Shown here piece after piece: positions 33,438 through 38,309 of a stretch of 64,000 bases of DNA (positions are counted from its first letter, which is position 1; each line of letters opens with the position of its first letter). The stretch covers positions 56,694 through 120,693 of the forward strand of contig JAJZME010000047.1 of assembly GCA_021803035.1 (NCBI GenBank). The letters run 5' to 3'. The notes under the pieces were generated by a model. It did no database searches. It was not told the DNA's origin and saw nothing but the letters and a program-made list of their open reading frames with translations. Both the position numbers and the translations under genes were made by a program. This DNA comes from Acidobacteriota bacterium. Its GTDB lineage: Bacteria > Acidobacteriota > Terriglobia > Terriglobales > Acidobacteriaceae.

Positions 33438-33601
33438 CCTCAGCCCAGGTTTACCGGGTAGAAACTGCCCTTTCGCGTAAAAAATACACAGAACGAGAAA
33501 CCGCAAGCCTGGCTCCCGCCATCGTTTCGCATCCCCCTTCATTCCGCTAACTTGATCACTTCAAAAGGAGATCGCCCGCCGCCTGCCCTCCGGCGCCAGT
33601 T

Positions 33602-33617
33602 TGGCACCAGCGTTGCA
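33602..33617 (+). promoter_or_regulatory. sigma-54 promoter of the OmpA-like gene
   Basis: TGGCACC-AGCG-TTGCA matches the sigma-54 consensus TGGCACG-N4-TTGCW at all but one position. GG (33603) and GC (33615) are spaced 12 bases as required. The start would be near 33628, 61 bases before the ATG at 33689. A sigma-54 activator is encoded 1.1 kb downstream. Confidence 0.8.
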
Positions 33618-33688
33618 ATCCTAAAGGGCGTAAACATGACGCACTCCGTTGAAGTGAGCGGAAACAGCGTCGCGGAAGGGCAAATACA

Positions 33689-34558
33689 ATGAAAAATCAG
33701 ATGATTGCCAGCTCCTTTCCTCGCCAGGCCGCAGTGCTGATCTTGGCTTCCGCGCTTGGTCTCCCAGCATGGGCGGCAAAAGCGCCCGCCAGCTCCCAAT
33801 CAACTTCTTCAATATCGCAGCAGCCCTCCTCCCAACCCAGCACCTATGTGCCTCCGCCAAAGGAAGGATTCTGGGGACGCTTGAATCCTTTCGCCCGCAA
33901 AAAGTGGGTAAGAAGGCAGCTTAGCCCCATCAATGGCCAGCTCAACGAGCTGGATCAGGTCAATGCCCAGATGGCACACAGGATCAACGACGTGAACAGC
34001 CGGGCGCAGGCCGGGATCAGCAAGGCGCAGGAGACCGCGGACAACGCAAACCAGTCTGCCCTCGCCGCCGGAAATCAGGCGCAGCAAGCCAACTCTACGG
34101 CAGAAGATGCATCTAACACAGTGAAGCAACTACATACCACCGTATATGGGCTAGATCAATACCGGCAGGTATCGTCATTCGACATCGTCTTCCGCGGTGC
34201 GAGTCCGGTCTTGACAGCCACGGCCCGGCAACAACTCAATAGCCTGGCGGCCAACATTACTGGCCGTAGCGGCTATATCCTGCAGATCGCTGCACAATCA
34301 CCGGCGCCGGGCGCCTACGGTATCCAAATTTCTCAGCGTATGGCTGAAGCGGTCGAGCGTTACCTCGTCACGCAACATCAGATTCCCATCTACCGCATGC
34401 ACGCGGTGGCCCTGGGCAATGCCCAGAGCGAAACGGACGGCACGGGTCAGGTTCGTTACAGTAACGTGCGCGTGCAGTTGATGGAAAACAGCTTGGCGGC
34501 CCAGGATGCAGCGTCACCCCAGGGCACTGCGTCCTTGAATGGTGCGGAGCGGCCCTAA
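33689..34558 (+). CDS. OmpA-like envelope protein with coiled coil
   Basis: 289 residues. A signal peptide (VLILASALGLPAWAAKA) suggests export. A linker and an Ala/Gln-rich coiled coil follow (about 80-150, LNELDQVNAQMAHRINDVN). The C-terminal domain (about 165-270) has the OmpA/MotB-like peptidoglycan-binding layout (FRGASPVLTATARQQLNSLA, ISQRMAEAVERYLV, then HAVALGNAQ). It lies downstream of a sigma-54 promoter and ends 100 bases before a strong terminator, so it is probably transcribed alone. Confidence 0.82.
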   Translation: MKNQMIASSFPRQAAVLILASALGLPAWAAKAPASSQSTSSISQQPSSQPSTYVPPPKEGFWGRLNPFARKKWVRRQLSPINGQLNELDQVNAQMAHRINDVNSRAQAGISKAQETADNANQSALAAGNQAQQANSTAEDASNTVKQLHTTVYGLDQYRQVSSFDIVFRGASPVLTATARQQLNSLAANITGRSGYILQIAAQSPAPGAYGIQISQRMAEAVERYLVTQHQIPIYRMHAVALGNAQSETDGTGQVRYSNVRVQLMENSLAAQDAASPQGTASLNGAERP

Positions 34559-34657
34559 ACCGCAGCCCCTCCCTCCGAGGCAACATCCCGCGCCAACGGC
34601 CACCCCGCCGTAAGGCCGCCAAACAAGCTCTCGCAACACGAGAGAACCAAGGCAACT

Positions 34658-34689
34658 TGGCCCCCGCTGAAAACGGGGGCCGATTTTTT
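34658..34689 (+). terminator. intrinsic terminator after the OmpA-like gene
   Basis: GGCCCCCG and CGGGGGCC form a perfect 8-bp stem with a 7-base loop, followed by GATTTTTTT. A smaller hairpin, CTCTCG/CGAGAG, lies just upstream at 34627-34643. Together they isolate the OmpA-like gene from the regulator gene. Confidence 0.92.
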
Positions 34690-34701
34690 TCTGCCCCCAT
34701 C

Positions 34702-34713
34702 CGACGGTACCGT
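34702..34713. promoter_or_regulatory. 12-bp perfect palindrome upstream of the sigma-54 activator gene
   Basis: GACGGTACCGTC is fully self-complementary and lies 48-60 bases before the GTG start, with TTGACA at 34725-34730 after it. It could be an operator, perhaps autoregulatory. No protein can be assigned from sequence alone. Confidence 0.3.
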
Positions 34714-34760
34714 CTGCTTACTCCCTTGACACTTGCGCTCCTACGCTCAAATCGCTTAAT

Positions 34761-37112
34761 GTGCAGGCGAGGTCGATCCTCGTGTCGCACGTTTCTGACT
34801 CCCCGGAAACGAGTGCCGCGGCTCTGGCTAGGAAACAACGGGCCGAATTCGCACGACTGGCGCTCGAGAACCACTTTGCGATCTCGCCCGACGCGATCTT
34901 TGTCACGGACGCGGAAGGCGTGATCCGTGAAGCCAACCCCCGTGCCTCGGAAATGTTCGGCTACACCCGCGCCGAACTGACCGGCTTGCCCATCGAGGCG
35001 CTGGTCCCTGAACGCTTCCGGGCGCACCATCCCGGCCACCGCGAAAACTACAATGCCCATCCCCGCTCCCGTCCCATGGGTGCGAATATGAACCTGTTCG
35101 CCCTGCGCAAGGACGGAACCGAGTTCCCCGTCGACATCATGCTCCGGCCCGTCGGCAGCGCCCAGGGCCCGGTAGTGCTTAGCTTCGTCCGCGATGTGAC
35201 GGAGAAGCGGGCCGCGCAGGATGAGCTGCGCCGCAAGGACCTGCAACTGCGCTCGGTCCTGGAAAGCATTCACGACTACGCCATCTTTATGCTCGACCCC
35301 GACGGGCACATCCTCACCTGGAACGCCGGCGCCGAGCGCATCAAGCAGTACACGGCCGACGAGGTGCTGGGCCTGCACTTTTCGCGCTTCTTCACCCAGG
35401 AAGACATTGAACGCAACCGTCCGGCCGAGTTGCTTCGCCAGGCCGCGGAGCGCGGCCGCATCGAAATTGAAGGCTGGCGCGTGCGCAAGGACGGGTCGCG
35501 CTTCTGGGCCTACATCAGCCTCACCGCCATGCGCGGCGCCGCGGGCGAGTTGATCGGCTACGCCAAGGTCACGCGCGATTTCACCGACCGCAAGCGCGCC
35601 GAAGAGGCCGTCATGCTGCAGTTGAGCAGCACGCTGCTGGCCAACGTCGATATCCGCAAGCTGCTGGCCGCCGTCTCCGCCAGCATCCGCGAAGTGGTCC
35701 CGCACGACTGCGCTACCCTCGCCCTTTTTGACCAGGAAGCTGGTGACCTGGCCGCTCAGTTTCTGGGCGCCGGCCAGACCGATCCGCCGCACAGCCAGGT
35801 GCGCATCCCGCTCGAAGCCTCGCCGGCGGGCGCCGCGTTTCGCACCCGCCAGCCGGTGGTCCTCGCGCGCATTCCCGATCCCGCATTTGCCGCCGGCGCC
35901 GTGCAGCATCTCACTGCGCTCAGCATGGCGTCGGGCTGCTGGGTCCCGCTCGTTTTTCGCGGCGAATCCATCGGGACCATGGCCGTGGCCAGCCGCGCGG
36001 AAGGCGCCTTCTCCGCACACGACGCCGAGATGCTCACGCAGATCGCCTCCCAGGTAGCCATGGCCGTCAACAACGCCATCGCTTTTCGCCGCATCGCCGA
36101 GCTTCGCGACCGCCTGCGCCAGGAAAAACAGTACCTTGAAGCGGAGATCAACCTCGAAAACCGCTACGAGGACATCGTGGGCGACAGCACCGGGCTGCGC
36201 CAGGTTCTCAAGCAGATTGAAACCGTCGCGCCCACCGACGCCACCGTCCTCATCCAGGGCGAAACCGGAACCGGCAAGGAGCTGCTGGCGCGCGCCATTC
36301 ATCGCCTCAGCGCGCGCAACGAGCGGACATTCGTCAAGCTCAACTGCGCCGCCATCCCCGCCGGCCTCCTTGAGAGCGAGCTGTTCGGCCATGAAAAGGG
36401 CGCATTCACCGGCGCCATCGCCCGCAAGATCGGCCGCCTGGAGCTGGCGCATGAAGGCACGCTCTTCCTCGACGAGGTGGGCGAGCTGCCTCTGGACCTG
36501 CAGCCCAAGCTGCTGCGCGCGCTACAGGAACGCGAGATCGAGCGGCTCGGCGGCAACCGCCCCATCACCGTCAACGTGCGCCTCATCGCCGCCACCAACC
36601 GCGACCTGACGCAAATGGTGGCCGAAAAACAGTTCCGCAGCGATCTTTACTACCGGCTCAAGGTCTTTCCGGTCCTCGCACCGCCGCTGCGCGAGCGCGC
36701 CGGCGACATCCCCATCCTTGTCCGCCACTTCGTCTCCGCGCACAGCCGGCGCATGGGCAAGACCATTGAAAGCATTCCCGATGAAATCATGCAGGCGCTG
36801 GTGCGGTCGAAGTGGCCGGGCAACATCCGCGAGCTGGAAAACTTCATCGAGCGCGCCGTCATCCTCACCCGCGGGCCAGTGCTGCACGCCCCGTTGACCG
36901 AGCTGGAGACCGGCGACGAGCAGGACAACGACGGCGCGACGGCAGCCGCCACGCTGCACGAAGCCGAGCGCGATCACATTCTGCGCGCACTGCGCGAAGC
37001 CAAAGGCCAGATCGGCGGCCCGGATGGCGCCGCCGCCCGCCTCGGCCTCAAACGCACCACCTTGAACTCCAAGCTGAAGAAGTTCGCCATTGCGCGCAGT
37101 GACTACATGTAG
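34761..37112 (+). CDS. sigma-54-dependent activator with PAS, PAS and GAF sensors
   Basis: 783 residues. Two PAS domains (about 35-155 and 160-285) and a GAF domain (about 300-435) precede the AAA+ domain (about 465-700). The latter has Walker [11 protein letters not shown], the sigma-54-contacting GAFTGA loop, and Walker [12 protein letters not shown] Fis-type HTH closes the protein ([18 protein letters not shown]). No receiver domain is present, so signals probably enter through PAS/GAF ligands. The start could be GTG 34761 or GTG 34782. Sigma-54 promoters at 33602 and 37245 flank it, making their genes likely targets. Confidence 0.93.
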
Positions 37113-37244
37113 TCTCCGCGACGATATTTCGTCTTCGTCACTTCGTCACTCAGCCGCTCGTCACCCACAAACCGCCGGCAATCCTCCTAGTTAACTCCTT
37201 CCATTGCAAATACTTATCCGGATCTGCCGCGCCGCGCTCCGGTT

Positions 37245-37260
37245 TGGCACGCGCCGTGCC
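37245..37260 (+). promoter_or_regulatory. sigma-54 promoter of the STAS-crp operon
   Basis: TGGCACG-CGCC-GTGCC matches the -24 element exactly and keeps GC at -12 (GG at 37246, GC at 37258, 12 apart). The start would be near 37271, leaving a 21-base leader before the proposed ATT start at 37292. It lies 130 bases after the sigma-54 activator gene. Confidence 0.75.
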
Positions 37261-37291
37261 TTACTCAAGGGCAAGGCGCAGGACGAGCCAG

Positions 37292-37615
37292 ATTACGTTA
37301 AAGATCACACTGCAGGAAAGTGAAAGTTCGATCGAGATCATCCTGGAGGGACGGGTCGCGGGGCCGTGGGTGGCTGAACTAGGCCGTGTCTGGGTGGAAA
37401 CGGCCCCGCACTTGAACTCCAGAAAGCTCGTCCTCGATCTACGCAATGTGACCTATGCGGATATGGCCGGAACGGACGCGTTGAAAGATATTTATGCGCA
37501 AAGCAAGGCCAGCCTGGTCGCTGGCTCGCCCTGGACCGAGTATCTTGCCGAGGAAATCAGCAAGGGCAACACGAACGATGCGATCAAGGGGGTTGAACAT
37601 GCAAACCGTGCTTAA
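37292..37615 (+). CDS. STAS-domain protein
   Basis: STAS/anti-anti-sigma-like fold of about 107 residues (ITLQESESSIEIILEGRVAG, then LVLDLRNVTYADMAGTDALK). The Ser that is phosphorylated in SpoIIAA-type antagonists is not present: the loop reads DMAGTD. The start is unusual. Upstream GTG 37256 and TTG 37244 fall inside or before the sigma-54 promoter, while ATT 37292 has AGGA 8 bases before it and gives MTLKITLQE. The 3' end overlaps the crp ATG by 17 bases, implying coupled translation. Confidence 0.72.
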   Translation: MTLKITLQESESSIEIILEGRVAGPWVAELGRVWVETAPHLNSRKLVLDLRNVTYADMAGTDALKDIYAQSKASLVAGSPWTEYLAEEISKGNTNDAIKGVEHANRA

Positions 37616-38309
37616 TGCAGTCATTGCTTCCGACGTCCGGCCACAGGCCGCCGGCACGTTTTTCGACAAATTGCCCGCAACTGCTCAGCAGGATTTACTG
37701 TCGCTGGCGCACACTTCCTCTTTCCCCTCCGGCATTGTTCTGTTCGGCGAGAAAGACCCTGTCTCCGGCGTTTATATGGTGGTGGAAGGCGAGATCAAGC
37801 TCTCGATGAACTCGCCTGAAGGCAAGCGTCTGATCATGCACATCGCCCGCAAGGGCGAGATTTTGGGCTTGCCGTCAGCTCTCTCCGGCCGGCCCTACGA
37901 GATGACCGCCGAAACGCTCTATCCGGCAAAGGTCGCCACCGTGTTGCGCCCCGATTTCCTGCGCTTTCTGACGCGCTATCCCGAAGCCTACCCCATCGTG
38001 ACTGAAGAACTGAGCCGCAACTACGCCATGGCCTGCGATCAGTTGCGCACCGTCGGCCTGTCCGCATCGGCCCATGAAAAGCTGGCCCGCCTCCTGCTGG
38101 AGTGGAGCGAAAATGGTCAGACCACCGAACGCGGCACGCGCTGCCGCTTCCCGCTGACGCACGGCGAAATCGGCGAGTTCATCGGCGCCTCCCGCGAAAC
38201 CGTCACCCGCACCCTGAGCGTCTTCAAGAGCCGCCATCTGATCGCCTTCAACGGCTCCATGCTGATGATTCCCAGCCGCGCGGCGCTTGAACATTACGCA
38301 AACAGCTAG
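37599..38309 (+). CDS. Crp/Fnr family transcriptional regulator
   Basis: 236 residues from ATG 37599, with AAGGGGG 8 bases upstream. An N-terminal cyclic-nucleotide-binding beta-roll (GVYMVVEGEIKLSMNSPEGKR) is followed by a winged HTH with recognition helix GASRETVTRTLSVF. Its RE-x-x-x-R pattern equals that of E. coli Crp and predicts TGTGA-type sites. There is no N-terminal cysteine cluster, so it is not an Fnr. The cAMP-contacting residues are only partly conserved, so the effector is uncertain. It overlaps the STAS gene and shares its sigma-54 promoter. Confidence 0.92.
   Translation: MQTVLNAVIASDVRPQAAGTFFDKLPATAQQDLLSLAHTSSFPSGIVLFGEKDPVSGVYMVVEGEIKLSMNSPEGKRLIMHIARKGEILGLPSALSGRPYEMTAETLYPAKVATVLRPDFLRFLTRYPEAYPIVTEELSRNYAMACDQLRTVGLSASAHEKLARLLLEWSENGQTTERGTRCRFPLTHGEIGEFIGASRETVTRTLSVFKSRHLIAFNGSMLMIPSRAALEHYANS

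Follow-up and report, generated by a model that had tools for sequence, protein, structure and literature searches.

Introduction

Translation initiation factor 3 (IF3) checks the start codon and discriminates against codons such as ACG, and a study in E. coli reportedly gives data for all 64 codons used as starts. Natural noncanonical starts with a regulatory role are, to our knowledge, few, namely those of infC and sigR. Self-regulating infC with an ATT or ATC start is a known arrangement, and sigR of Streptomyces has a GTC start and is repressed by IF3 (PMC5472188). Here we analyse a stretch of 64,000 nt (the window) from a soil acidobacterium, Acidobacteriota bacterium (Terriglobales, Acidobacteriaceae; assembly GCA_021803035.1, contig JAJZME010000047.1, positions 56,694-120,693 of the forward strand), in which a gene for a STAS protein, followed by a gene for a Crp-family regulator, lies behind a sigma-54 promoter and next to the gene for a sigma-54 enhancer-binding protein (EBP). 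We consider it probable that this promoter and a second one, in front of a gene for an OmpA-like envelope protein, are conserved sigma-54 promoters with two different activators, that the EBP switches only the STAS-Crp pair, and that STAS likely starts at ACG. Judged by their titles, the papers found on ACG starts concern only organelles, viruses, yeast, plants or animals, and our literature search returned no paper on RpoN promoters with STAS in Acidobacteria, nor on sigma-54 in Terracidiphilus.

Results

A conserved ACG at the aligned start of the STAS gene

The features concerned are the following:

37245..37260, forward strand: sigma-54 promoter 2, TGGCACGCGCCGTGC, kept in STAS relatives; predicted transcription start at about 37271
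37295..37615, forward strand: STAS gene, with predicted start codon ACG at 37295-37297 and a predicted STAS fold
37599..38309, forward strand: Crp-family regulator gene (Pfam), its ATG lying within the 3' end of the STAS gene

The search with the EBP covered the genome of the window (G000) and 40 relatives, 25 of these 41 being of the same genus, and identical sequences were counted as one locus (loci are numbered L, genomes G). An alignment search with STAS gave matches in 49 of 80 genomes of the genus. From the predicted transcription start as far as codon 20, the STAS frame of the window lacks ATG, GTG and TTG. With loci of further genera included, the aligned start in 135 distinct loci is ATG in 79, ACG in 29, GTG in 15, TTG in 9, GTT in two and GCG in one; L158, L161, L164 and L184 are outside this count as their match to the model began after column 2. 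Among the 48 distinct loci linked to the promoter ACG is the commonest (25, next to 14 ATG, 5 GTG, 3 TTG and 1 GCG). Of the 220 remaining threonine codons in the 25 ACG-start genes, 71 are ACG, roughly one in three, and an ordinary threonine codon at the aligned start would be expected to show the same share together with ACA, ACC and ACT. None of these three was seen there, all 29 codons of threonine type being ACG, which argues against a plain threonine codon.

Thirteen of the 25 promoter-linked ACG loci have no ATG, GTG or TTG from the predicted transcription start to codon 2, and three, the window among them, have no canonical start as far as codon 20. Canonical codons at position 0, -12 or +3 are absent from 14 of the 29 ACG loci, as is to be expected of a noncanonical start. 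The commonest match to a ribosome site is AGGA at an aligned spacing of 9, alike in ACG and canonical loci, and the leaders of L196 (ATG) and L198 (ACG) are closely similar. The first strand of the STAS fold starts at residue 2 of the ACG-start form. ACG is also present in two records not labelled as metagenome-assembled genomes, L120 (Occallatibacter savannae) and L134 (strain AB60). The loci L145-L195, most of them from Nitrospira, have ATG, GTG or TTG, poorly aligned rows aside. Taken together, a natural ACG start is likely the best reading of the STAS gene. Since gene callers accept ATG, GTG and TTG, STAS, which appears to start with ACG in at least 25 promoter-linked loci, is presumably given a wrong start or shortened in public sets. 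L246, from another genus, has GTT at the STAS start and, two codons before it, a stop in the same frame; this is possibly a further noncanonical start.

The same approach was applied to infC, which has ATC at the aligned start in 13 of 13 relatives from the genus and a neighboring family, as judged by eye. This indicates that control of the IF3 type from a noncanonical start exists in these bacteria and that the method recovers the known case. At that place L281 and L273-L285 have no canonical codon, and in the genus a GGAGG tract lies before it.

Other means of reading or controlling the STAS leader were tried and rejected. For a special initiator tRNA with the anticodon CGT, six matches to the initiator pattern were found in this incomplete genome, of which one was called a tRNA by ARAGORN, with the anticodon CAT; a tRNA-Thr(CGT) beside another of the matches is an ordinary tRNA. 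Control by CsrA, suggested by GGA in a loop, found no CsrA match in the genome, which is 98.5% complete. Some relatives have an ATG close to the transcription start; frameshifting from it was set aside, since AAG or GAG stands at that place in other loci, the window included.

Two conserved sigma-54 promoters

The second site is accompanied in the window by an upstream counterpart with its own gene:

33602..33617, forward strand: sigma-54 promoter 1, TGGCACCAGCGTTGC, best score of the window; predicted transcription start at about 33628
33689..34558, forward strand: OmpA-like envelope protein gene (PF00691, 29.2 bits), probably with a separate switch of its own

An earlier note on this stretch had proposed both sites, at 33602 and 37245 with a GG/GC spacing of 12, and they are present exactly as described, as are the OmpA-like gene and the STAS/Crp pair that it placed behind them. 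Both sites have their GG and GC elements 12 apart in a TGGCAC-N5-TTGC context, and rpoN is present in a single copy in the genome. Scoring used a hand-entered weight matrix, with 20 simulated windows as the chance level; the score of site 1 is the highest of the 64-kb window and was equalled 0.05 times per simulated window.

Conservation is where both sites gain their weight. The promoter site precedes STAS in 48 of 51 distinct relatives with a STAS score of at least 95 bits (the relatives without a match being L132, L147 and L199), and in the genus a TTTGGC..TGC site precedes STAS in the window and 11 further loci. That promoter 2 serves the STAS-Crp pair, as had been claimed, is therefore most likely. 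In front of OmpA a site is found 87-215 nt upstream in 22 of 22 same-genus orthologues; the eight orthologues examined from another family have no TTTGGC site, and two of them have a weaker CTTGGC match. Through this conservation both sites are likely to be genuine sigma-54 promoters.

Some further relatives differ in architecture. Eight loci (L100, L104, L105, L106, L109, L115, L200 and L210) have their STAS start, ATG or GTG, 12-13 nt past the GC of the -12 element, so that leaderless sigma-54 mRNAs are predicted for them. STAS relatives in Nitrospira (L145, L148, L149, L151, L152, L155, L156 and others) often have sites resembling TGGAATGCC-CTTGC some 43 nt ahead of the start, so the control of this STAS family by sigma-54 may date back much further.

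The two promoters carry different upstream motifs

Comparison of the upstream regions gave these predicted activator sites:

33458..33487, forward strand: predicted enhancer (upstream activating sequence) of the OmpA promoter, GTAGAAACTGC-N8-GTAAAAAATAC, a GTAR-N3-YTAC pair found once in this genome
37101..37114, forward strand: dyad GACTACATGTAGTC, predicted as a second activator site, which includes the EBP stop codon
37120..37133, forward strand: predicted STAS-Crp upstream activating sequence GACGATATTTCGTC, a dyad kept in STAS promoters
37134..37149, forward strand: direct repeat TTCGTCACTTCGTCAC adjoining the STAS-Crp upstream activating sequence, read in the upstream-region comparison

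The conserved block of STAS promoters reads GTGACGA-N4-TCGTC-N-TCGTCACTTCGTCAC, with its centre about 120 bp from the promoter, and that of OmpA promoters reads GTAGAAACTAC-N8-GTAAAAATTAC. A dyad of the GACTACATGTAGTC type recurs before many STAS promoters as GACTAYATGTAGTC, or a GACGA-type dyad takes its place. With up to one mismatch, GACGA-N4-TCGTC is present at 47 of 48 STAS promoters and at 0 of 22 OmpA promoters, while the GTAR-N3-YTAC pair (up to three mismatches) is present at 18 of 22 OmpA promoters and at 0 of 48 STAS promoters; shuffled sequence reached either threshold in at most about 0.5% of cases. The strict form of the STAS motif occurs in 7 of the 41 genomes, once in each and every time at STAS (reversed control: 2 matches), and the strict OmpA motif at seven places in 6 of the 41 genomes, six of them at OmpA (reversed control: 2). 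Sigma-54 promoters are expected to have an enhancer about 100-200 bp upstream, and here two distinct conserved types of dyad stand at that distance. STAS keeps its motif even where it lies off the contig of the EBP, for example in G016, G020 and G021.

The EBP co-occurs with STAS, not with OmpA

Between the two promoters lies one further gene:

34761..37112, forward strand: sigma-54 activator (EBP), PAS-PAS-GAF-AAA+-HTH (helix-turn-helix) with GAFTGA (Pfam; translation)

The activator gene described earlier has two PAS domains, one GAF domain, a sigma-54 AAA+ domain and a Fis-type HTH, with GAFTGA legible in the translation, so that the AAA+ domain with its GAFTGA loop and the HTH that mark a sigma-54 enhancer-binding protein are all present. 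Its start is likely a few codons past the listed one (34761-34790), most relatives aligning only from residue 10-13. A search with this EBP gave 19 matches in its own genome.

An EBP of at least 56% identity is present in 17 of the 25 same-genus genomes (in G006 and G024 on cut contigs). With presence of STAS defined as E < 1e-25, STAS was found in 16 of the 17 genomes with the EBP and in none of the eight without it (one-sided Fisher 8e-6); G013 and G022 have weaker STAS relatives, and the only EBP-bearing genome in which STAS was not found, G024, is 73% complete. Beyond the genus, loci L145-L195 come mostly from Nitrospira, and the fetched flanks of 32 of these 51 contain an EBP match, mostly of 50-63% identity. 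Judging from these comparisons, the pairing of STAS proteins of this kind with an EBP related to that of the window is older than the genus, and the neighboring EBP is most likely the activator of STAS-Crp.

OmpA is distributed differently. OmpA with its promoter site is present in seven of the eight genus genomes without the EBP (G003, G004, G010, G013, G017, G018 and G022). It lies next to the EBP at three places only, in G000, G015 and on contig 30 of G008, and elsewhere, in most of the genus genomes fetched, it sits after a DUF2393 gene. The rarity of this adjacency, the separate motif and the genomes with OmpA and no EBP indicate that the neighborhood of OmpA and the EBP is probably coincidental. 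Together with the co-occurrence of STAS and the EBP, this distribution suggests that the EBP serves STAS-Crp while OmpA is likely driven by another EBP from the GTAR-N3-YTAC sites.

A possible short hairpin at the mRNA 5' end of OmpA (33628-33660 in the window) scored 8.23 against 7.56 in chimeric controls, the largest of which reached 8.5, and was thus not above controls. The OmpA leader also contains an 18-codon open reading frame (33636-33692) that overlaps the OmpA start as ATGA, the ATG of which is generally not kept in the leaders of relatives.

The first PAS domain of the EBP matches FixL with E 5.5e-14, with a histidine aligned within an R-x-x-H stretch; a FixL-like heme PAS is marked by its heme-ligand histidine and heme-contact residues. 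Sensing of oxygen or redox state through the heme of a FixL-like PAS is accordingly a possible signal of the EBP.

Properties of the STAS protein

The Pfam score of STAS (19.9 bits) is below the cut-off of 22.6; a STAS fold was nonetheless predicted. Built from 12 sequences, the model has a pLDDT (predicted local distance difference test) of 88.7 and places strand 1 at residues 2-8; Foldseek matched it to SpoIIAA, RsbV and MlaB with E values from 1e-5 to 1e-3. Across 11 pairs of ACG-start STAS genes dN/dS is 0.07-0.37, and the STAS gene is under purifying selection. Crp follows STAS in G000 and 11 more loci of the genus. At the column matched by eye to the phosphorylated serine of SpoIIAA, serine is found in only two of 12 STAS relatives, which makes a phospho-switch unlikely. 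Of the marks of a SpoIIAA-type anti-sigma antagonist, the STAS fold is thus present and the conserved phosphorylatable serine is not, and the protein likely works as an unphosphorylated binding partner.

Discussion

According to the earlier note this region forms a compact local regulon in which one activator, the EBP, opens the OmpA and STAS-Crp promoters alike. The three transcription units do adjoin in the window and in G015 (at contig 30 of G008 without STAS-Crp), and both promoters are of the sigma-54 type with a common GGGC-like start region. Their conserved upstream motifs differ, however, and never cross over, and OmpA keeps its promoter in all but one of the EBP-less genomes or stands by DUF2393 without the EBP, so that a single regulon is very unlikely. 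The scan of relatives for both promoters together with the activator, which the note had suggested, thus bears out the conservation of the promoters and the association of STAS with the EBP, while OmpA does not track the EBP.

Other starts have to be weighed for STAS. Initiation four codons upstream (37283, ATG in some relatives and ACG in the window) would agree with the in-frame ATG that 5 of the 29 ACG loci have there and with the 43 of 120 public protein clusters, among the matches listed (238 found), for which this ATG is the start. As far as we know the sources of these clusters admit canonical starts only, and they therefore cannot show ACG starts. The codon at this position in 36 loci with a leader is ACG in 16, GCG in 4, ATG in 4, AAG in 3, GAG in 2, the stop TGA in 2 and others in 5, and codons so mixed, stops included, cannot represent a general start. 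Position 37283 also falls inside the purine tract acting as ribosome site, and the fold of the shorter protein sets in at its residue 2. This start is consequently unlikely, and in the window it would itself be ACG, so that the start would be ACG either way. That ACG is an ordinary threonine codon and STAS is instead read from GTG 37256 or TTG 37244, on a longer mRNA made from a different promoter, is quite unlikely. Within the window both codons share an open frame with STAS, and public gene calling begins the window's copy at GTG (P0001), but they overlap the conserved promoter 2, stops in frame lie a short way upstream in several ACG relatives (L087 at -15 and L088 at -30, for example), and the threonine codon usage set out above is against it. 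Editing of C to U in the mRNA, turning ACG into AUG as in plant organelles, would account for single-base alternatives of ACG and ATG in like contexts such as those of L196 and L198. Loci with GTG, TTG and GTT show that variable starts are tolerated, we know of no bacterial case of such editing, though no search for an editing enzyme was made, and we regard it as extremely improbable.

Several observations weigh against an ACG start behind a sigma-54 promoter and against separate activators. Besides the upstream ATG and its use in public clusters, TTG is codon 2 in 9 of the 25 promoter-linked ACG loci, two aligned starts are GTT, and the genus locus L206 reads GCG with no good start. The tree count, made without L206, calls for a minimum of 11 switches between ACG and a canonical codon, though the resolution of the tree is poor, and since the STAS loci are related to one another their counts are not independent. 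Covariation did not support a hairpin with the Shine-Dalgarno sequence of STAS in its loop: paired cells amounted to 75.0%, compared with 71.9% after shuffling, and compensatory changes were not in excess. When the register was left free, the leader hairpin scored 6.33, compared with 5.34 in chimeric controls, of which the largest reached 6.17. Promoter site 2 has the second-best score of the window, yet this was equalled 2.3 times per simulated window and is not significant by sequence alone. In the genome the pattern TTGGCACN6TGC is not enriched: it matches 4 times, twice at the two sites described here, and the reversed control matches 8 times. No EBP match was found in the 1.5-kb flanks of 30 OmpA loci, so that a candidate activator of OmpA was not found there.

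Two of these matters have details of their own. On contig 8 of G020, the STAS copy L206 reads GCG where the start aligns, and a usable start was not seen; with five STAS matches in G020, L206 may be in decay. Of the four strict sigma-54-like matches in the window's genome, the remaining two are at position 1502 of L002 and position 1515 of L005.

With a natural ACG start and a dedicated activator, the locus could work as follows. The EBP would bind the GACGA-N4-TCGTC dyads, one of them doubling as the 3' end of its own gene, sense its signal via PAS and GAF and then open promoter 2. The transcript would carry a leader of about 24 nt, on which ribosomes set by the AGGA-type tract would initiate at ACG at a low rate, using the usual initiator tRNA. 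IF3 would restrain this initiation, so that the level of STAS would be capped relative to Crp and tied to IF3, and Crp, translated from its own ATG inside the 3' end of STAS, would then alter a second set of genes. On balance we lean towards the wider view that the STAS family is naturally ACG-started in the Terracidiphilus/Occallatibacter group and in three or more other genera of that bacterial family, that this start has been long kept while trading places with ATG, GTG and TTG at the same base, and that it acts as a throttle read by IF3 beneath a dedicated activator whose operator lies partly within the activator gene itself, at its 3' end.

What is new here is a conserved regulator gene that likely initiates at ACG, a start hardly known in bacteria. 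If true, nature offers ACG, ATG and GTG versions of one operon, in which the gain from a weak start codon could be measured. The locus also illustrates that neighboring sigma-54 promoters are not to be assigned to a neighboring activator without comparing their upstream sites.

Compared with known systems, the products of the locus resemble described families only in part. The EBP is of the FhlA/NorR/NifA type with GAF, AAA+ with GAFTGA and Fis-type HTH, and its best NCBIfam model is FhlA with 507.5 bits; unlike FhlA it stays below the equivalog cut-off of 830, has two extra PAS domains and has STAS-Crp as its predicted target. STAS shares the fold of single-domain SpoIIAA/RsbV and of MlaB and differs in having no conserved phosphorylatable serine. 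The product of the Crp gene is like FtrB and CRP in its cyclic nucleotide-binding fold and Crp HTH, but is far under every NCBIfam cut-off (best FtrB, 57.8 against 211 bits). The closest parallel to the start codon is with sigR and infC, in which a regulator likewise keeps a noncanonical start genus-wide behind a ribosome site and annotation shifts the start to a nearby canonical codon (PMC5472188). STAS differs from both in that its codon is ACG, with a mismatch at the middle base, that it lies in a sigma-54 operon and alternates with ATG, GTG and TTG among species, and that control by IF3 is here a prediction.

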